Source: Pseudofulvimonas gallinarii (GTDB taxonomy: Bacteria > Pseudomonadota > Gammaproteobacteria > Xanthomonadales > UBA2363). Taken from it: DNA of 46,195 nt. The notes under the pieces were generated by a model. The model ran no database searches, was not told the origin of the DNA, and was given only the letters and a program-made list of their open reading frames with translations. The first letter of the stretch is position 1. Each line of letters starts with the position of its first letter. Where the stretch lies: contig NZ_SMAF01000025.1 in the NCBI RefSeq assembly GCF_004343305.1, positions 1 to 46,195 of the forward strand, written 5' to 3'. A program made the translations under genes and the position numbers. Positions 9,368 through 29,241 of the stretch are shown here, one piece after another.

Positions 9368-10171
9368 ATGAGCCGCATCATCGCCATCGCCAACCAGAAA
9401 GGCGGGGTCGCCAAGACCACGACCTGTGTCAATCTCGGCGCCGCCCTGGCCGAGATGAATCGTCGTGTCCTGGTGGTGGACATGGATCCCCAGGGCCACG
9501 CCACCATGGCCGCGGGCATCGACAAAGATGCCGACGCGCCGAACGGTTGCGCCGTGCTGCTGGAAGAGTCACCGATCCAGGATGCCATCGTCCGCACGGA
9601 AACCGGCCTGGACGTGCTGCCGGGCAACAGTGACCTCACCGCCGCCGAAATCAAGCTCATGGACGGACTGGCGCGCGAGCATCGCCTCGGCAACGCGCTG
9701 AAGTCCGTGCAGGACCGCTACGACTACATCCTCATCGACTGTCCGCCTTCGCTCAGCCTGCTGACCATCAATGCGCTGACGGCGGCCGACAGCGTGCTGA
9801 TCCCGATGCAGTGCGAGTTCTTCGCGCTCGACGGCCTCACCAAGCTGATGAAGACGATCGAGGCGATCAAGGCGCACACCAATCCGCGCCTGGAGATCGA
9901 AGGCCTGCTGCGCACCATGTACGACGGCCGCAACAACCTCGGCCAGGACGTCTCGGCGCAGCTGGCCGCGCATTTCGGCGACAAGGTCTACCACACCATC
10001 ATCCCGCGCAATGTGCGCCTGGCCGAGGCGCCCAGCCACGGCCTGCCGATCACCGCTTATGATCGCGACTCGCGTGGCGCCATCGCCTACCTGGGCCTGG
10101 CCGGCGAAGTCCTGAAGCGGGAGCGGGACAGCCATGCCGAGGCGGCGCCGGCCGCCGCCGCGCACGGTTGA
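9368..10171 (+). CDS. parA: Chromosome partitioning ATPase ParA (Soj)
   Basis: This 267-residue ATPase drives segregation of chromosome origin regions with ParB. The deviant Walker A is NQKGGVAKTTT at residues 9-19 with the signature Lys11 and Lys16. The A' motif is VVDMDPQGHAT and Walker B is YILIDCPPSL. The C-terminal IPRNVRLAEAPSHGLPITAYD is the ParA/Soj box. The Ala before the second Lys (GVAKTT rather than GVGKTT) is common in this group. The open frame extends upstream across rsmG, but ATG 9368 matches the family start. It sits 10 bases after the rsmG stop. Confidence 0.96.
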   Translation: MSRIIAIANQKGGVAKTTTCVNLGAALAEMNRRVLVVDMDPQGHATMAAGIDKDADAPNGCAVLLEESPIQDAIVRTETGLDVLPGNSDLTAAEIKLMDGLAREHRLGNALKSVQDRYDYILIDCPPSLSLLTINALTAADSVLIPMQCEFFALDGLTKLMKTIEAIKAHTNPRLEIEGLLRTMYDGRNNLGQDVSAQLAAHFGDKVYHTIIPRNVRLAEAPSHGLPITAYDRDSRGAIAYLGLAGEVLKRERDSHAEAAPAAAAHG

Positions 10172-10189
10172 CGAAGAGGAAACGGAAGA

Positions 10190-11101
10190 ATGGCGGCAGC
10201 GAAGAAGCGCGGTCTCGGCCGCGGACTGGATGCCCTGCTCGGTAGTGGCGCGGTGCGCCCGAGCGCCAGCAGCGGCGTGACCGACGGCGAGGTCGCCGTT
10301 GACGAGGGCGAGCTGCGTGAACTGCCGATCGACAGCCTGCACGCCGGTCGCTACCAGCCACGACACAACTTCGAGCCGGAGGCGCTGGAGGAACTGGCGC
10401 AGTCGATCCGCGCCCAGGGCCTGATCCAGCCGATCATCGTCCGTCCGCACAATGGCGGCTACGAGATCATCGCCGGCGAGCGCCGCTGGCGCGCCGCGCG
10501 CCAGGCCGAACTGACCCAGGTGCCCTGCCTGGTGCGCGAAGTCGACGACCGCACCACAGTTGCGATGGCGCTGATCGAGAACATCCAGCGCGAAGACCTC
10601 AATCCGCTGGAAGAGGCCACCGCGCTCAAGCGCCTGATCGACGAATTCGACCTCACGCACCAGGAAACCGCCGATGCCGTCGGCCGCTCGCGTGCCGCCG
10701 TCAGCAACCTGCTGCGCCTGCTCGACCTGCCCCACGCGATCCGCGACCTGGTCGAAGCCGGGCGCCTCGACATGGGCCATGCCCGCGCGCTGCTGACATT
10801 GCCGGAACCGCTGGCGCTGCGCCTGGCCGACCAAGCGGCCAGCGAGGGCTGGTCGGTGCGCCAGCTCGAACAGGCCGCGCGCGAAAATCCGGGCGCGACG
10901 ACCCACGGCAGCCCGCGTTCCGGCGGCAAGCCCGCAGTCTCCGCCGATCCCGACATCACGCGACTGGAGCAGGAACTGGCCGAACGGCTGTGCGCGCCGG
11001 TCAGCGTGCGCCACAGCCGCGGCGGCAAGGGCCAGCTGGTCATCCGCTACCACAGCGTCGACGAGCTCGAAGGCATCCTCGAACGGCTGCGCGGACACTG
11101 A
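10190..11101 (+). CDS. parB: Chromosome partitioning protein ParB (Spo0J)
   Basis: This 303-residue protein is a DNA-binding CTPase that loads at parS sites and works with ParA. The N-terminus KKRGLGRGLDALLGS contacts ParA. The CTP-binding domain has YQPRHNFE and GERRWRAARQA, with ENIQREDLNPLEEA after it. The helix-turn-helix is LTHQETADAVGRSRAAVSNLLRLL. The C-terminal dimer region contains LEQELAERLCAPVSVRHS. It follows parA by 18 bases with a good ribosome site (GAGGAAACGG). I saw no perfect parS palindrome in the window. Confidence 0.96.
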   Translation: MAAAKKRGLGRGLDALLGSGAVRPSASSGVTDGEVAVDEGELRELPIDSLHAGRYQPRHNFEPEALEELAQSIRAQGLIQPIIVRPHNGGYEIIAGERRWRAARQAELTQVPCLVREVDDRTTVAMALIENIQREDLNPLEEATALKRLIDEFDLTHQETADAVGRSRAAVSNLLRLLDLPHAIRDLVEAGRLDMGHARALLTLPEPLALRLADQAASEGWSVRQLEQAARENPGATTHGSPRSGGKPAVSADPDITRLEQELAERLCAPVSVRHSRGGKGQLVIRYHSVDELEGILERLRGH

Positions 11102-11191: not shown

Positions 11192-11575
11192 ATGGACCTG
11201 CCTTCGTACTTGGCCCTCGCCGCCGTGATGGCGGCACCCGCCGCCTCCGCCACCGGCATTGCCGGCAGCGTTGCCATCAACGGTTTCGACTATTCACCCC
11301 CGACCCGGCAGGTCGAGCCGGGGCAGACCATCGACTTCGCCGCGACCGGCTTTCATCCGCTGAAGCTGGACGACGATGATTCGGTGACGTGTACCCAGGA
11401 TTGCCACGTCACCTTCCTCGGCTTTGGCCACTACGGGTTCTATTGCGGGAACCACGGCAGTCCCGGTGGCAATGGCATGTCCGGCGTCATCGGCGTCGTT
11501 GGCGACCCGGATTCGGCGCCGGTGTTCGTCGGCAGCTTCGAGCACGCGCTGATCGCGCCGCGGGTTCCCGGGTAG
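11192..11575 (+). CDS. Secreted plastocyanin-like cupredoxin
   Basis: This 127-residue protein has a signal peptide (about residues 1-20, ending ASATG) and a compact domain with the type-1 copper ligands of plastocyanin-like proteins: an upstream His in GFHPLKL and the cluster YCGNHGSPGGNGMSGVIGV supplying Cys, His and Met. An extra cysteine pair (CTQDC) may form a disulfide. It may carry electrons or bind copper in the periplasm, and its partner is not known. The start ATG 11192 is supported by AGGAGCGCAGG just upstream. It is 90 bases after parB and may have its own promoter. Confidence 0.78.
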   Translation: MDLPSYLALAAVMAAPAASATGIAGSVAINGFDYSPPTRQVEPGQTIDFAATGFHPLKLDDDDSVTCTQDCHVTFLGFGHYGFYCGNHGSPGGNGMSGVIGVVGDPDSAPVFVGSFEHALIAPRVPG

Positions 11576-15560: not shown

Positions 15561-15848
15561 GGCCGAGTATGCACGAGTCGCATTGCCGGTGCGACCCGCG
15601 GTCTGGAATGCGTCGGGCAACCTGCAACATGCGCCGCGCCAGCCATGCGCGGCGATTGGGCGGGACGCCCCGGTTTTCGAACCTGCCAGCTGCCGAGCCG
15701 GGGCTGGACCGGTACCAGCACAGGACAGGCATCGGCCGGCGCAGATCAACAAAGGGCTGCCCGCGACCCAGGATCGCGAAGCGGCCAGCGCGCTCCTGCG
15801 CCGGCGGCATGCAGGAGGAAAGCGCAACGCCCGAGCGTCAGGAGGCTG

Positions 15849-15868
15849 ATTCCCGCCTTCGCGGGAAT
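15849..15868. repeat. REP-like palindrome 1
   Basis: ATTCCCGC-CTTC-GCGGGAAT, an 8-bp perfect stem with a 4-base loop. This motif is widely scattered in Lysobacterales intergenic DNA. It belongs to the partial first unit of the tandem array. Confidence 0.8.
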
Positions 15869-16100
15869 GAGGCGGCTGAACCGGATTGACGATCAACGAC
15901 GGAATGTTCCGTTGTGCTGCCGCCGTTTCGCCATGCGGCCGCATCCAGCAACGAAGCGCATCCCTGTGTAGATCGCGTAGAAGTGTTCCCGGGTCGATCC
16001 CGACAGGGTGTTCCAGGGTCAAGCGCGTCTGCGTGTTCTAGGGTCAAGCGCGTCGGCGGGTCGCAGTCTCGCGCGGCAGTCGAGAGGCTTGTCATCCGTC

Positions 16101-16120
16101 ATCCCCGCGAAGGCGGGGAT
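16101..16120. repeat. REP-like palindrome 2
   Basis: ATCCCCGC-GAAG-GCGGGGAT, an 8-bp stem. It is the mirror-type partner of the CTTC-loop palindromes and faces palindrome 3 about 29 bases away, forming a pair. Confidence 0.8.
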
Positions 16121-16149
16121 CCAGTGCTTTCAGCGCCCACGAGGCTGGA

Positions 16150-16167
16150 TTCCCGCCTTCGCGGGAA
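16150..16167. repeat. REP-like palindrome 3
   Basis: TTCCCGC-CTTC-GCGGGAA, a 7-bp stem; the outer A-T pair is lost by a T-to-C change relative to palindromes 1 and 5. It is the second member of the first palindrome pair. Confidence 0.8.
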
Positions 16168-16383
16168 CGAAGATCAACGGGACGGTATGTTCCGTTGTGC
16201 TGCCGCCGTTTCGCCATGCGGCCGCATCCAGCAACGAAGCGCATCCCTGTGTAGATCGCGTAGAAGTGTTCCCGGGTCGATCCCGACAGGGTGTTCCAAG
16301 GTCAAGCGCGTCTGCGTGTCCCAGGGTCAAGCGCGTCGGCGGGTCGCAGTCTCGCGCGGCAGTCGAGAGGCTTGTCATCCGTC

Positions 16384-16403
16384 ATCCCCGCGAAGGCGGG
16401 GAT
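16384..16403. repeat. REP-like palindrome 4
   Basis: This is identical to palindrome 2 (ATCCCCGC-GAAG-GCGGGGAT) and lies exactly 283 bases downstream of it. The identity supports recent duplication of the whole unit. Confidence 0.8.
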
Positions 16404-16432
16404 CCAGTGCTTTCGGCACGTCAGGAGGCTGG

Positions 16433-16452
16433 ATTCCCGCCTTCGCGGGAAT
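16433..16452. repeat. REP-like palindrome 5
   Basis: ATTCCCGC-CTTC-GCGGGAAT, identical to palindrome 1. It closes the array about 50 bases before the purC stop codon. Confidence 0.8.
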
Positions 16453-16503
16453 GATGGACAACGGCGGCAGGTGCGGTCCTCACCCGGGGCGGCGCCGCGC
16501 GAA

Positions 16504-19440: not shown

Positions 19441-20466
19441 ATGCGAACAGCCTGTGCCGTGTTGGTCGTTGCGCTGGGTTCTCCTTGTGCCGTGGCGCAA
19501 CAGATCGTGGTGGGCGGAACCGGCATCGACTACCAGGCCAGCGTTGCCGTGCCCTGGAAGGCGCCGGACCGGCGCGTACTGGCGTTTGAGCGCCTCGACG
19601 GCAGCGCCACCGGCGACATCTGGCTGACCCGCTCCGAAGACGGTGGCGACACCTGGGACACGCCTGTCAGCATCGTCGCCAGCTTCGTCAACGAGCGTCA
19701 TCCGGCCCTGGTGCAGACCGGCGAATCGGCCTGGTCACTGTTCCACTTGAGCAATGCCAGCGGCGGCTTCCGCATCCACCGCGCCACCTCCAGCGATGCC
19801 GCGAATTTCTCCGCCTCCGCGCCGGTCGACCTGGGATGGCCCACCGGCGGCGAGATCAATCCGCATGTCATCCGTCGCGATGACGGCACCCTGGTCCTCG
19901 CCTACCAGCGCCTCGGCGGTGCCGCCTACATCGCCATTTCGGAGGATGACGGCGCCACCTGGAACACGCCTCCCATCCAGGTCACGACGGGCAGCGCCGC
20001 ATTGCCGCGCATTGCCTGCCGCGAGGACGACGACACCTGCCTGCTGGTCTACCAGACGGGCAGCCAGGACCTGACGCTCTGGGTGAAGACGAGCGCCGAC
20101 TTGCACGACTGGTCGGCACCGGCCCGACCGCTGACCAGCGACGGCAACAACCACGACCCGCTGCCGCTGGTTCTGGCCGACGGCAGCTTCGTGGTGCTGT
20201 GGTCGCGCATGGCGAGTGGTGGATTCCAGGTGTTCTCGACCCGTTCGCATGACGGCGTGACCTGGCAGCCGCCCATGCAGCACACCGAGCGTCCGGGCCT
20301 GCACAACGTGCAGCCGCATGCCGTGCCCGCGTCTTTGCCCGGCACCGTCGAGCTCTACTGGGGCGCCGCGCAGCTGCCAAACTACGGCGACGTCGATATC
20401 GCGCGCGAGGCGATGGTGCTGGTCGCCGACTGGCTGTTCCGGCACGACTTCGAAACAGTGGAGTAG
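19441..20466 (+). CDS. Secreted sialidase-fold (BNR repeat) protein
   Basis: This 341-residue protein has a signal peptide (about residues 1-19, ending VAQQ) and repeated Asp-box-like motifs: SEDGGDTWDTP, SEDDGATWNTPP and SHDGVTWQPP. These mark six-bladed sialidase-type propellers. The sialidase Arg triad and FRIP motif are not evident, so glycosidase activity is unproven. The tail WLFRHDFETVE resembles the FADGFE tails seen on secreted proteins of this group. ATG 19441 is preferred over ATG 19432 because GGAG at 19428-19431 abuts the first and is nine bases from the second. Confidence 0.72.
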   Translation: MRTACAVLVVALGSPCAVAQQIVVGGTGIDYQASVAVPWKAPDRRVLAFERLDGSATGDIWLTRSEDGGDTWDTPVSIVASFVNERHPALVQTGESAWSLFHLSNASGGFRIHRATSSDAANFSASAPVDLGWPTGGEINPHVIRRDDGTLVLAYQRLGGAAYIAISEDDGATWNTPPIQVTTGSAALPRIACREDDDTCLLVYQTGSQDLTLWVKTSADLHDWSAPARPLTSDGNNHDPLPLVLADGSFVVLWSRMASGGFQVFSTRSHDGVTWQPPMQHTERPGLHNVQPHAVPASLPGTVELYWGAAQLPNYGDVDIAREAMVLVADWLFRHDFETVE

Positions 20467-21928: not shown

Positions 21929-22783
21929 TCAGCCCCGAGAGGGGTACAGGAAGTCGGTGTCCTTGAAGCGGATCAGGACGCCGTCGGGACGGATTTCCAC
22001 CACTTCCAGGCCACCTTCAAGGGGCTGGCCGTCGCGCGCGCGCACGCCGTTGATGATCGCGAAGCGGCGTTCGGGGTCGGCGCTGTACATGTGCATGGTC
22101 AGCGCGATCTGCGGGATCTCGCGGCGGACGGCATACGGCAACTGGTTGAAGGTGGGCACGGCATTACCGGGTTGCGCGGCGGCGGGTGCCGGCGGCGGCG
22201 TCGGCGCCACCGGTGCGCTGGCGGGCGCTGCGGGCTGCGCGGCAGCAGGCGGGGCTTCGGCAACCGGGGCCGGCGCGGCCGCAGCGGCGGCGGCTTCCGC
22301 GTCGGTGGGGATGTCGGCTGCGTCGGGCACGGCCGGCTGTCCGTCGGCTGCAGGGGCGGCCGCGGGATCCTGCGCCGGGGCCGTCGGGAGATGGCGCGGG
22401 CGGAAGGGACCGAAACTGACCTGCGCAGGTTCCGTTGCAGGCGGGGTCGAGGGTTCGGCTTCGGGGCGATCGACCTGCGCCGGCGCGGTGACGGGTACCG
22501 GTGCAGGGGGCACGGCAGCTGCGGCGTCATCGGATAAGGCCGGGCTGGCGGACACCGGCCGGGATTCCGCCACCGGATCATCGGCCTCGGTACCCGCTCC
22601 ACTGAACAGGCCGCCGGCCCAGGCCGCGACGAGCGCGACGCCGGCAATGGCGGGCAGCAGCCAGGCCGGCCGCTGCTTCCGGGCGGGTTGCCCCTGGCGC
22701 ATGATCGGCGTGCTCAGGGTCGGCGGGACACCGCGCTGGCGCTCGGCTTCGGACTTCTTCAGGGCGTCGAGGATCGAGGACAT
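21929..22783 (-). CDS. gspB: General secretion pathway protein B (GspB/ExeB)
   Basis: This 284-residue protein starts MSSILDALKKSEAERQRG, the conserved GspB cytoplasmic motif. It has one membrane helix (about residues 38-58) and a long Pro/Ala-rich periplasmic linker. It ends in a small domain with LPYAVRREIPQIALTMHMYSADPERRFAIINGVRARDG, typical of GspB. With ExeA it forms an inner-membrane complex that helps the type II secretion outer-membrane secretin assemble in peptidoglycan. It lies 4 bases after exeA. No other gsp genes are in the window. Confidence 0.9.
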   Translation of the reverse strand: MSSILDALKKSEAERQRGVPPTLSTPIMRQGQPARKQRPAWLLPAIAGVALVAAWAGGLFSGAGTEADDPVAESRPVSASPALSDDAAAAVPPAPVPVTAPAQVDRPEAEPSTPPATEPAQVSFGPFRPRHLPTAPAQDPAAAPAADGQPAVPDAADIPTDAEAAAAAAAPAPVAEAPPAAAQPAAPASAPVAPTPPPAPAAAQPGNAVPTFNQLPYAVRREIPQIALTMHMYSADPERRFAIINGVRARDGQPLEGGLEVVEIRPDGVLIRFKDTDFLYPSRG

Positions 22784-22787
22784 GGGC

Positions 22788-24356
22788 TCATTCTATAGGC
22801 TGGCCGGATTGCGGCCGGTCGGGCGGTCCCAGCCTCGGACCGCCTTCGAGCAGGGCGGACAACAGCCACCAGGTTTCCGGACCGACCACGGCGTCGGCAC
22901 GCACGCCGAACTGGCGCTGCAGCCGCCGGATGCGTTCATCCTGGTCTGACAGCGGCGAAAGCGATCGGTTCGATTCATAGCGGTCGAGGGCCGGTCGCGC
23001 CCAGGCGGGCAGTGGCCCGCTGTGGATGGCGCTGACCGCCGCCGGCAGGCTCAGCAGCGACACGTATTCGCCGGGCCACAGGGACTCGAGCTGTCCGCGC
23101 GAGACCACCTGCGACTGTGCACCAGCCACGGTCGCCTGGTCGGCATCCAGCCCGGTGAGTACCAGTCCGAGGTCGCCCTGGTCCTGCGGCAGGATGAGCA
23201 GTACCGGGCGATCGAGCAGGGCCAGCTGGGTCAGGTTGCCGCGGCTGCGCGCGCAGTAGAGGTTCTGTTGCAGCCGGAACGGGCATTCGATCACCCGCTC
23301 GACCAGTGCCGGCGAGGACTCGATGCCATGGACCCGCAGCAGCGCCTGCGCCGCGACATCCGGCGGCGCGCCCTGCAGCGCAGGCTCCGGCGCCAGCGTT
23401 TCCGCGTCCACAATGTCGTCCACCAGCGGTTCGGGATGGCGCTTCGTCCAACCGTTCCAGGCCAGGAACACGATCGCGGCCAGTGCCAGCAACGCGATCG
23501 CGGCCAGCGGCCAGGCACGACGGCCGATCATGTCCGCGACAGGGCGATCCAGCAGTTCGGCGGCAGCGCGATCGACGACGCGCGCATCGAGCTGCGTGCG
23601 GTCTTCGGCGTATCCGGCCACCAGCGCGCGCTCGGCGATCACATTGATCAGCCGGGGCACGCCGCCGGAATGGCGGTGGATGGCTTCCTCGGCCGCTGGC
23701 GTGAATGGCGAACGGCGCAGGCCGGCCACCGCCAGGCGATGACGCAGGTAGGTGGCGGTTTCCTCGCTGTCCAGCGGCGTCAGGTGGTAGCGGGCGGTAA
23801 TGCGCTGCGCCAGCTGCCGCAGGTCCGGGCGCGCCAGCAGCTCGCGCAGCTCCGGCTGGCCGAGAAGGACGATCTGCAGCAACTTCTGCGTCGCCGTTTC
23901 AAGGTTGGTGAGCAGGCGCACCTGTTCCAGCGACTCCACCGACAGCTGCTGTGCCTCGTCGAGGATCAGAACAACGCGCAGGTCGCGCGCATGTGCGTCC
24001 AGCAGGTATCGGTTGAGGGCATCGACCAGCGCCTTGCTGCTGCCGCGCGCTTCGCCGACGTCGATGTGCAGTTCCTCGCAGATCGCTTCCAGCAACTCGA
24101 CCGGATTAAGGCGCGGGTTGAGCACCAGCGCCACCCGCGTGTTCTCTGGCAGTTGCTCCAGCAGCAGGCGACTGAGCGTGGTCTTTCCGGTGCCGACTTC
24201 GCCGGTCAACTGCACGAAGCCGCCACTGCCGCCCTGGGCAATGCCATAGACCAGGTGCGCCAGCGCATCGCGGTGGCGGTCGGAAAGGAAGACGAAGCGC
24301 GGGTCGGGCGTGATGGAGAACGGCGCCTCGGCCAGGCCGTAGTGCTCGAAGTACAT
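22788..24356 (-). CDS. gspA: ExeA-type AAA ATPase of type II secretion
   Basis: This 522-residue protein begins MYFEHYGLAEAPFSITPDPRFVFLSDRHRDAL, the ExeA/GspA opening. Walker A is TGEVGTGKTTLSR near residue 52, and Walker B is VVLILDEAQQL. One membrane helix (PLAAIALLALAAIVFLAW) lies near residue 285. The C-terminal periplasmic part ends in a peptidoglycan-binding-like fold (LQRQFGVRADAVVGPETWWLLSALL). ExeA and GspB together locate the secretin PulD/ExeD. The gene is adjacent to gspB in the same operon, and it is divergent from the deacetylase gene. Confidence 0.92.
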   Translation of the reverse strand: MYFEHYGLAEAPFSITPDPRFVFLSDRHRDALAHLVYGIAQGGSGGFVQLTGEVGTGKTTLSRLLLEQLPENTRVALVLNPRLNPVELLEAICEELHIDVGEARGSSKALVDALNRYLLDAHARDLRVVLILDEAQQLSVESLEQVRLLTNLETATQKLLQIVLLGQPELRELLARPDLRQLAQRITARYHLTPLDSEETATYLRHRLAVAGLRRSPFTPAAEEAIHRHSGGVPRLINVIAERALVAGYAEDRTQLDARVVDRAAAELLDRPVADMIGRRAWPLAAIALLALAAIVFLAWNGWTKRHPEPLVDDIVDAETLAPEPALQGAPPDVAAQALLRVHGIESSPALVERVIECPFRLQQNLYCARSRGNLTQLALLDRPVLLILPQDQGDLGLVLTGLDADQATVAGAQSQVVSRGQLESLWPGEYVSLLSLPAAVSAIHSGPLPAWARPALDRYESNRSLSPLSDQDERIRRLQRQFGVRADAVVGPETWWLLSALLEGGPRLGPPDRPQSGQPIE

Positions 24357-27250: not shown

Positions 27251-27793
27251 ATGCACGCAGCCATCACCGGGCTCTTCCTGGCGGCACTGACCACCACCGT
27301 CTGCGCTGACGGCACGCCCACGGGCACCAATCTCATCGTCAATGGCGGCTTCGACGGTGGGCTGTCCGGCTGGCAGGTCCTCTATGAGCGTCCCGCGACC
27401 TGGTGGCCGATGGATGCCAACGGCGATCCGGCGTCCGGATCGGCCTTCCTGCGCAACGCCTACGTCGGCAACGGCGCCACGAGCGCCATCCTGATGCTGT
27501 GCATCCCGGTCAAGGGTGGCGAGACCGTGTATGCCAGCGGCGACGTGCTGTTGCCGGAACACATGGATCCCGAAGGCCATCGGGCATCGATTCTCGTCTG
27601 GTCGCATTTCGGCGAGAACTGCTTCGCGGACGGCGAACCGGTCACGTATCCCACGCTGTACGAGCAGGGACCGGACTGGCAGTTCATCGAAGGAACCGGC
27701 GTCGTGCCGCCGGGCGCCGACTTCATTTCGGTGATGCTGGGCGTGGGCAAAAGCCACGACGTCACGGAAATCGGCGACGCCTACTTCGACAAC

Positions 27794-27801
27794 ATTTTCG
27801 T
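27794..27801. repeat. 8-bp target-site duplication, left copy
   Basis: ATTTTCGT directly abuts the left inverted repeat of the insertion sequence. The identical octamer at 29185-29192 abuts the right end. An 8-bp duplication is characteristic of ISL3-family transposition. Confidence 0.92.
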
Positions 27802-29184
27802 GGGTCTTCGTGATTCCGAGTGGGTGATTCGCGGGTCATGATCACGATGCGCCCCGCGCTGGCGTTGAATTTGCGGTCCATCGGCGGCGCCCGGATTTCT
27901 GGCACGCTTTGGTCATGGCCAGATCCCATGCAAGGCAGCGTCGCCTGCTCGACGCATATCGGTTCCGAGGCTTCCGACCGCAAGCGCAGGTCAAGGGCGT
28001 GTTCGGCGATCCCGAGGCGCGCGTCGTCACCCTTGTTCGGCGGGGAAAAAAACGATCTGCGGTGCGTGCGGCTCGAATCAGCTCGGCTGGTACGACCGCA
28101 AGACGCGGCGGGTACGCGATCTGTCCTGCGGCGACACGCGCGTCTGGCTGGACCTGGAAGTCCGTCGCGTCGACTGCAGGCGCTGCGGCAAGGTGAAGAC
28201 CGAGCGGCTCGACTTTCTGGCCGACAATCCGTTCTACACCAAGCGTTTCGCCTGGCACATCGGACGGCGTTGTCGGCAGGCCACCATCAGCGATGTGGCG
28301 AAGGAGTTCAAGCTCGACTGGCAAACGGTCAAGGCGCTGGACAAGCAGTACATGGCCGAGCAGGTCCGCCGTGCCGGGCTGCCCGGTCCGAAAGTGATCG
28401 GAATCGACGAGATCTCGATCCGCAAGGGCCACACCTACCGCATCGTGGTCAGCGACCTGATCCGCAAGCGGCCGATCTGGTTCGGCGGCGCCGACCGCTC
28501 CGAAGCCAGCATGGGCCAGTTCTATACCGCGCTGGGAACAAGGAAATCTGCGGGTATCCGCCTTGCCGTGATGGACATGTGGCGCCCGTTCCGCACCGCC
28601 ACTCAAGCGCACGCGCCCAAGGCAGCCATCCTGTTCGACAAGTTCCACGTCATGCGCCACCTGGGCGAGGCACTGGATGCCGTGCGCAAGAGCGAGTACG
28701 CCCGCCTGGCCGGCCGCGACCGGGCCTACATCAAGGGGCAGAAGTACACGCTGCTGTCGAGTCGAGAGAACCTCAGTCTCGACGGCCGGGCCGCACTCAA
28801 GCGCTTGCTGACGGCGAACAAGCGGCTCAACACGGCCTACCTGCTCAAGGAACGGTTCGGTCAGCTGTGGGACTACCGCAGCGAAGCGTGGGCGCGAAAG
28901 TACTTCGACCAGTGGCGCGCCTCGCTGCGATGGCAACGCCTGCCGAGCTTCGAGAAGTTCGCCGCCATGATCGAGCGACACTGGGACGGCATCGCCGCCT
29001 ACTGCAGACCCGAGAACAAGGTGTCGCTCGGCTTCGTCGAAGGACTCAACAACAAGATCCGCGTCATCCAGCGACGCGCCTACGGCCTGCGCGACGAGGA
29101 GTACCTGCGACTGAAGATCCTCACCTGCATGCTGCCGGAGCTGTGAGAATCCGTGACAGTACCCACACGATTTCACGAAGACCC
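27802..29184 (+). mobile_element. ISL3-family insertion sequence, complete, 1383 bp
   Basis: The ends are imperfect inverted repeats that share GGGTCTTCGTGA and match at 20 of 24 positions (27802-27825 and 29161-29184). The flanking octamer ATTTTCGT is duplicated exactly. The cargo is a single transposase gene in two frames. The intact ends and exact duplication point to a recent insertion, and the split gene on both sides can be joined without loss. Confidence 0.92.
27915..29146 (+). CDS. ISL3-family transposase, split by frame change at an A7 run
   Basis: The first part starts at ATG 27915 (MARSHARQRRLLDAYRF) and runs in one frame to the A7 run at 28046-28052. The sequence then continues one base back, as KKTICGACGSNQLGWYDRKTRR, a zinc-finger region with CGACG and CRRCG, and on through the DDE-type core: IGIDEISIRKGHTY, FDKFHVMRHLGEA, and EGLNNKIRVIQRRAYGLRDEEY. 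With a -1 shift the product is about 410 residues, the usual ISL3 size; without it translation stops at 28196 after 93 residues. The shift could be programmed (heptamer A AAA AAA), a mutation, or a sequencing error. Confidence 0.88.
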
Positions 29185-29192
29185 ATTTTCGT
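29185..29192. repeat. 8-bp target-site duplication, right copy
   Basis: This is the second copy of ATTTTCGT, adjoining the right inverted repeat at 29184. It restores the reading frame of the interrupted gene when one copy and the element are removed. Confidence 0.92.
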
Positions 29193-29241
29193 AAGCATTG
29201 AAAACACGAATGCGATCTTTGCCGACGGCTTCGAACCCTGA

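Follow-up and report, generated by a model that had tools for sequence, protein, structure and literature searches.

A short tag at the ends of unrelated exported proteins co-occurs with a PDZ-type type II secretion system across an order inferred to be Lysobacterales

Results

Two related tails in one stretch of DNA

The stretch of DNA analysed here (46,195 nt, referred to as the window) carries two genes for signal-peptide proteins whose products end alike. The first (19441..20466, forward strand) encodes a 341-aa sialidase-fold (BNR_2) beta-propeller (PF13088, 47.6 bits) with a signal-peptide-like start as judged by eye; a 344-aa form, starting at an in-frame ATG 9 bp upstream (19432), was used in the analyses. 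An AlphaFold model of the protein has a mean pLDDT of 86.9 with a confident propeller, and its best Foldseek matches are sialidases (E 1.8e-11). The C-terminus of this frame reads ...DWLFRHDFETVE before the stop codon, so that the protein ends WLFRHDFETVE, with the first F codon of the tail at 20437.

The second gene is split. Its 5' part (27251..27800, forward strand; MHAAITGLFLAALTTTVCADG..NGGFDGGLSGW..) has a signal peptide by eye, and the position of its start Met, 27251, was derived by hand from the translation. At 27801..29185, also on the forward strand, lies an element that we take from its sequence to be an ISL3-like insertion sequence, with a presumed transposase frame (27869-29146), inverted ends of 25 nt (27801-27825/29161-29185, 84% complementary) and a 7-bp direct repeat, TTTTCGT, on both flanks. 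It parts the signal-peptide gene, with its NGGFDGGLSGW-type beta domain, from the gene's own FADGFEP tail. The 3' remnant is a forward-strand frame ending NAIFADGFEP, in which FADGFE plus P occupies 29218..29238 (F codon at 29218) and the stop codon 29239-29241.

All six frames of the window were scanned for F..[GD]FE, F...FE and F..GF[ED], with five matches. From the start of the match to the stop there are 9 residues for the sialidase tail, 7 for the NAIFADGFEP tail and 16 for a match at 11525, and the other two are far from any stop. Both of the tails to which the initial annotation drew attention are thus present in the sequence; the motif that it proposed, (I/L)F..(D/G)FE, is real but looser than the main form, the core of which is [ILV]-F-x-D-G-F-E.

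On the reverse strand of the window, near the tagged sialidase gene, a gene for a GspB-like type II secretion system (T2SS) assembly factor (21929..22783; NF037978, 43.1 bits, below the 100-bit cut-off) adjoins one for a GspA/ExeA-like ATPase (22788..24356; TIGR03015, 262.5 bits, cut-off 324.5), tentatively named GspA for its position beside gspB. Repeated stretches at 15800-16500, with frames resembling RHPREGGDPV..DSRLRGNE / IPAKAGIQ..WIPAFAGT, seem to belong to a repeat dispersed between genes.

The sialidase tail FRHDFE (20437..20454, forward strand), followed by TVE and the stop, departs from the core. In the AlphaFold model it is predicted to be disordered, with pLDDT below 50 at residues 336-344, which are exactly FRHDFETVE. 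Orthologs of the sialidase (E up to 1e-15) were found in 12 of 299 genomes of the order, including the source genome, and in register with FRHDFE the 11 other tails read FADGFD, FHDGFE, FADGFG, FSDRFA, FGHGFE, FADGFE, FADGFD, FAGTFE, FADGVE, FGDQFE and FADGFE. The first F is kept in 12/12 and the second in 11/12, and the linker drifts. Judging from this ortholog register, FRHDFE is a drifted copy of an F-x-D-G-F-E tag.

The tag in the source genome

The pattern TTYNNNGAYGGNTTYGAR occurs at 37 places in the 3.45 Mb source genome, of which the window is contig 25, and, read backwards, at none; about 0.1 F-x-D-G-F-E places are expected from the base composition, and chance is thereby ruled out as the origin of the tag. 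At 32 of the 37 places, 0-8 residues separate the tag from the stop. The other five comprise one without a gene-like frame (L007), one internal tag 164 residues ahead of the stop (L023), one directly after a signal peptide (L031:10192, frame 10120-10509), and a tandem pair shortly after a signal peptide (L034, 959-1681). A Sec signal peptide is present in 28 of the 32 C-terminally tagged proteins (25 by a simple rule and 3 by eye); of the remaining four, one runs off its contig, and L038, L052 and L031:7594 show no signal peptide.

According to domain searches, the tagged proteins of this genome have unrelated folds, including peptidases (M14, M64 and S8), alpha/beta hydrolase, FG-GAP propeller, right-handed beta-helix, multihaem cytochrome and VesB-like Ig-like domains, the last (PF22544) lying ahead of the tag in two proteins. 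The initial proposal that exported proteins with different folds share a tail is therefore borne out, and in the broad sense of a C-terminal sorting signal, defined by a C-terminal place on exported proteins of unrelated folds, the tag qualifies as one. The tagged genes are dispersed over the genome, and for that reason the nearness of gspAB to the sialidase gene is no evidence of a functional link. As a separate observation, the tagged multihaem cytochrome (L049:7775-9457) has partial MtrC/ExtKL-like matches and is possibly an extracellular electron transfer protein exported in this way.

Anatomy of the tag

For a wider view, 132 tails were pooled from the source genome (32), an order-wide sample (25), genome G090 (26) and named records (49), with duplicate contexts dropped and only tails ending within 20 residues retained; the pattern that retrieved the 49 from named records required A at x and a stop codon directly after E. 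The consensus of the pool is D-x-[ILV]-F-A-D-G-F-E, the residue before F being I, L or V in 125/132 tails and position -3 being D in 66/132. Among the 83 tails outside the stop-anchored set, x is A in 38 and 31 end exactly at E; residues follow E in 52 of the 132, all 52 belonging to these 83. Every synonymous codon is used at the five fixed positions. The tag is therefore conserved at the protein level, and a DNA-level repeat is ruled out as its source. Since 128 of the 132 tails (79 of the 83) end within 8 residues of the motif, these have no room for a helix after it.

In G090, 30 of 65 tag places were read, and 25 of the 29 in long frames lie within 8 residues of the stop; one (L093) is right after a signal peptide. 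Internal copies occur at L023, L061, L101 and other loci. No description of the tag was found in the open-licence PubMed Central literature or among NCBIfam and Pfam models, and as far as these searches show it is undescribed.

Distribution over the order and an arginine form in one genus

Among 299 genomes of one order, inferred to be Lysobacterales, F-x-D-G-F-E counts range from 0 to 77 per genome; these counts are DNA pattern matches, and outside the source genome only some loci were read individually. Counts are high in families f1, f3-f6, f8 and f11 and in most genera of f9, low in most of f7, and the tag is restricted to two genera in f2 and four in f12. The mention in the initial annotation of IFADGFE-like ends on many secreted proteins of Lysobacterales agrees with a tag that is widespread over most of the order. 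As a side observation, some C-termini of f7, namely YQNGFE, FKNGFE, FKDGMEDQ and FYNGLE (L317 of G062, L332 of G091, L303/L316 of G096), resemble looser forms of the tag; some f7 ends carry N-G-F-E or D-G-M-E, and f7 is mostly without the class A T2SS described below.

Outside the order there is no enrichment, with a maximum of 3 FADGFE per genome in 364 other genomes of the class (A fixed). At 28 of the 30 loci read there (L395-L424) the match lies within a protein that we take to be ProA, in a single motif 40-41 residues ahead of the stop; of the other two, one is internal in another protein and one is in a short frame. About one match per genome therefore represents cytosolic background. 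Enrichment at C-termini, the absence of which had been set as a condition that would overturn the idea, is strong where the tag abounds, and the recurring matches outside the order are internal. In named genomes, FADGFE followed by a stop was found at at least 80 loci. Among the matches listed, the long frames are mostly from Lysobacterales, Lysobacteraceae, Marinicella, Dokdonella, Tahibacter and unclassified Gammaproteobacteria/Pseudomonadota, with a few other carriers (e.g. Sedimenticola and an Alcanivoracaceae MAG), and the matches listed from other phyla are mostly frames of fewer than 50 residues. Tahibacter soli and Marinicella pacifica are among the species with the tag.

Genus g9 of f9 has just 0-4 F-x-D-G-F-E per genome. 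It was nevertheless dropped as a case of tag loss when F-x-D-R-F-E was found in its choice-of-anchor proteins and then counted: 24 of 30 g9 genomes have at least 10 and up to 81 (counted, not read singly), and other genera have 0-5, save g61 (40) and g65 (10). In the g65 genome, G162, 35 tags of the G form stand beside 10 of the R form. Of 24 choice-of-anchor Q loci in g9, 16 end in F-x-D-R, one in F-x-D-G-F-E and three in a hydrophobic helix, and four are unreadable. The change from G to R has run in parallel in many unrelated proteins, which is hard to explain other than by a common reader acting in trans; the g9 form of the tag suggests such a reader.

Co-occurrence with a class of type II secretion system

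GspD, GspB and rhombosortase were searched for in 80 genomes, 44 tag-rich and 36 tag-poor, although three of the four g9 genomes among these 36 are actually tag-rich in the R form (the fourth, G088, has one). GspD matched in 80/80 genomes (78 above the cut-off), which rules out the mere presence of a T2SS as an explanation; only the class A type discriminates. In a tree of 60 GspD sequences, 39 loci form class A (support 97/96), 20 form class B (100/100), and one is an A-like outlier on a long branch. The tree calls for some caution, as the branch of L288, grouped with class B, is also long and composition varies among the sequences. The class A GspD tree groups largely by family, as expected of an old inherited locus. 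In L251 the class A gene order is rho-trx-rhlB-gspC-gspD-gspE-gspF-ftsE-ftsX, and clustering placed rhlB near 17, rho near 12 and ftsX near 19 of the 39 class A gspD genes and near none of the other 21, these being counts from fetched stretches and simple gene calling that miss some neighbours. Separately, an extra GspD akin to class A, on a long branch and without the tag, was observed in L288 (G039) and in some other tag-poor f2 genomes (g13, g38, g2 and others).

All 299 genomes, complete and incomplete, were then tabulated with the two tag forms F-x-D-G-F-E and F-x-D-R-F-E added together; class A was assigned above about 540 bits (113 genomes) or to a contig-end fragment (5), and 20 genomes with A-like matches of 367-505 bits, or with split matches, were counted as lacking it. 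Among the 113 genomes with at least 8 tags, class A GspD is present in 96, a fragment in 3 and neither in 14. Class A or a fragment is found in 12 of the 148 genomes with 0-3 tags and in 7 of the 38 with 4-7. Of the 14 tag-rich genomes without it, eight are at most 90% complete or in more than 500 contigs (G047, G058, G122, G167, G177, G181, G187 and G208), and assembly gaps may account for the missing locus. The other six are G062, G096, G170 and G076 (f7), G019 (f8) and G188 (f12); G170, G076, G019 and G188 have just 8-9 tag matches each.

By genus, the tag and class A occur together in 32, the tag alone in 3, class A alone in 5 and neither in 45 (P 8e-15), so that 3 of the 48 genera without class A carry the tag; this P value overstates the evidence, because the co-losses in f2 and f12 may each be one or two events. 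In f2, class A is present in 2/2 tagged genera vs 0/19 untagged, and in f12 in 4/4 vs 1/18. Family f7 does not follow this pattern: no class A GspD is present in G062 (15 F-x-D-G-F-E), G096 (9) or G170 (7), so that two tagged genera and the tag-rich G062 are without it, and three class A genera have few tags. Other discordant genera are g16 (8 tags, no class A) and g39 and g71 (class A, few tags), and in the f12 genome G256 class A is present and the tag absent. Tag-poor genomes are also poorer in the kinds of protein that are usually tagged, choice-of-anchor Q being found in 20 of 60.

GspB was matched, always below its curated cut-off, in 43/44 tag-rich genomes and, among tag-poor ones, in 1/10 of f12 and 4/15 of f2, a distribution that parallels that of class A for f12 and, for the most part, for f2. 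It was matched in all nine f7 genomes scanned (6/6 tag-poor plus G062, G096 and G151). The co-occurrence of class A with the tag answers the call of the initial annotation for a transporter that tracks with it, and the hint at type II secretion given there stands insofar as the PDZ-type T2SS and GspB follow the tag; the nearness of gspAB that had inspired it does not count as evidence in itself. Two features expected of T2SS substrates, a Sec signal peptide and the presence of a T2SS, are found for the tagged proteins of the source genome and the order.

The GspC PDZ domain as a candidate reader

Class A systems are distinguished by their GspC. A PDZ domain follows the T2SSC domain in 35/35 class A GspC proteins scanned, and a model of the GspC of the source genome matches the PDZ domains of PulC and EpsC. 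No PDZ match was found in ten proteins beside gspD genes outside class A; of these, nine are beside class B genes, are taken as GspC-type by position and are also without a T2SSC match, and the tenth is GspL, next to the A-like outlier.

C-termini are common ligands of PDZ domains. The classical grip on a free carboxylate would be insufficient here, as residues follow E in many of the pooled tails and copies also occur near the N-terminus or internally. In a 2025 study, only some T2SS substrates of Vibrio cholerae are reported to need the PDZ domain of GspC (EpsC), VesB alone needing it fully; PDZ beads capture a chimera with the grafted VesB Ig-fold, and a disordered PelI loop is cited as a ligand of the OutC PDZ domain (PMC12369372).

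In g9 the PDZ domain of GspC has a net charge of -1.4 vs +0.9 and +2.1. Alignment columns that are more acidic in g9 number 7/76 in the PDZ domain vs 4/198 elsewhere (Fisher P 0.012), and columns more basic in g9 number 3 and 2, respectively. G162, which is mostly G-tagged, shares several of the acidic PDZ residues of g9. The acidic PDZ domain might answer the arginine of the g9 tag, a lead drawn from one clade.

Discussion

A proposed recruitment tag for class A type II secretion

In the mechanism proposed here, tagged proteins would leave the cytoplasm via Sec, with the tag D-x-[ILV]-F-A-D-G-F-E at an exposed end, usually the C-terminus and sometimes just after the signal peptide. The tag would then recruit the folded periplasmic protein to the class A T2SS, where the PDZ domain at the end of the inner-membrane subunit GspC is the most likely reader and GspA/GspB would be parts of the same machine. 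From comparative data, it seems an even call whether the tag is a linear recruitment tag for the PDZ-type (class A) T2SS. An export role is proposed with more assurance than the identity of class A as the machine, and the latter with more than that of the PDZ domain as the reader. A more far-reaching version is offered tentatively and with greater doubt, namely that D-x-[ILV]-F-x-D-[G/R]-F-E would be the first linear, portable T2SS tag, 6-9 residues long and sufficient by itself, serving dozens of unrelated folded periplasmic proteins and a dedicated PDZ-type T2SS, with tag and reader having changed together in one genus.

How a T2SS chooses its cargo is an open question in the field. In the 2025 study, T2SS substrates are described as having no linear universal signal, the information being structural (PMC12369372), and T2SS signals are likewise described as structural in another source (PMC7949064). 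A recruitment tag of this kind, carried by tens of proteins per genome and missing from most relatives without a PDZ-type T2SS, would, if true, go against the prevailing opinion that no linear signal is common to T2SS substrates. The natural G and R forms make the question directly testable. The tag would also give annotators a one-line predictor for part of the extracellular proteome of a large order, and possibly a small secretion tag for biotechnology.

Alternative explanations

The main rival, which is unlikely but has evidence of its own, is that the tag is a surface-anchor or processing signal, read by a transpeptidase or a glycosyl- or lipid-transferase outside the inner membrane, with the class A T2SS merely a carrier; it would then replace PEP-, IPTL- or MYXO-CTERM. 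The slot that the tag occupies is the ground for this reading. Of 20 tagged proteins searched against NCBIfam, five have a choice-of-anchor Q, D or NxxGxxAF domain that passes the curated cut-off, and there are one choice-of-anchor J and two more Q matches below theirs; the window sialidase, one of the 20, has no choice-of-anchor domain. Along residues 18-416, L051 matches MXAN_5453, a family with a MYXO-CTERM anchor, at 236 bits and so under the cut-off of 500. L036 resembles M36 models that depend on myxosortase, rhombosortase or the T9SS, each match scoring under its cut-off. The position after choice-of-anchor Q may be taken, where genomes are tag-poor or mixed, by hydrophobic-helix tails. 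Seven of these tails, from G103, G028, G052, G018, G069 (two) and G088, were tested, and IPTL-CTERM was above the cut-off in 4. Because choice-of-anchor domains precede the tag and IPTL-CTERM tails stand in the same slot, the tag occupies the sorting-signal slot of other lineages; the choice-of-anchor Q ends of g9 and the IPTL-CTERM tails show it in the place of other anchors in homologs.

Against an anchor stand the form and the position of the tag. Among the tails scanned, tag ends matched no CTERM model of NCBIfam, and with neither a transmembrane helix nor a basic end they do not show the tripartite signature of the PEP-CTERM type. A C-terminal cut-and-anchor signal also fits poorly, because the copies in L031, L034 and L093 lie directly or shortly after a signal peptide. 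The initial comparison with PEP-CTERM is consequently not upheld as a close one. Rhombosortase (TIGR03902) was rejected as a reader: it is above the cut-off in 6 of 80 genomes, of which five are tag-poor (G048, G013, G041, G055 and G052) and one tag-rich (G096), and weaker rhomboid matches are found in 80/80 genomes and also in 14/14 control genomes. The check for a dedicated protease thus had a negative outcome for rhombosortase over these 80 genomes.

It is improbable that the tag is a passive element, read by no machine and passed on by descent and recombination, which might cap an edge strand, lend an end solubility or stability, or be the eroded beginning of a lost domain. In its favour, internal copies occur in L023, L061 and L101, and secreted beta-domains may start D-x-F-E-S-G-x-x-x-W, which the tag resembles. 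However, the tag is disordered in the one model made and stands on many unrelated folds, g9 has the F-x-D-R-F-E form, and sialidase orthologs keep both F residues despite the drift of the linker.

Least probable is a T2SS or surface signal with a reader other than the GspC PDZ domain (the pseudopilus tip, the secretin, GspB or an outer-membrane protein): GspB does fit f7 better than the PDZ domain, being present in all f7 genomes scanned where class A is mostly absent and some tags remain, but some tag-poor genomes of f2 have it too, and none of its matches reaches the curated cut-off.

Comparison with known systems

The recruitment-tag reading, preferred here, can be set against several known systems. 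Class B as defined here includes the principal T2SS of f2 genomes that are tag-poor, which is probably the Xps T2SS of Xanthomonas. In that system XpsC is reported to have a single helix instead of a PDZ domain, and X. euvesicatoria to lack GspA and GspB (PMC11981180).

PEP-CTERM/exosortase, IPTL-CTERM, MYXO-CTERM and GlyGly-CTERM/rhombosortase are like the tag in having a short C-terminal signature on unrelated exported folds, a patchy presence among genera and a slot after choice-of-anchor domains. Unlike those systems, the tag has no helix or basic end, may follow a signal peptide and is not tracked by rhombosortase. GlyGly-CTERM proteins of V. cholerae are described as T2SS cargo that needs a further secretion signal (PMC13393428). 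The C-terminal domain proteins of the T9SS likewise have a C-terminal targeting element on many extracellular proteins, and one tagged protein is weakly like a T9SS-dependent M36 family (18.8 bits, cut-off 885). T9SS signals are folded domains of about 80 residues, whereas the tag is just 6-9 residues long.

Closest to the proposed mechanism are the PDZ-read signals of the VesB Ig-fold with EpsC and of the PelI Fn3 loop with OutC, which share with it a PDZ-bearing GspC, a subset of substrates and, in PelI, a disordered element (PMC12369372, PMC7949064). The signals of VesB and PelI are folded or composite and specific to their substrates, whereas the tag is one short sequence on many unrelated proteins.
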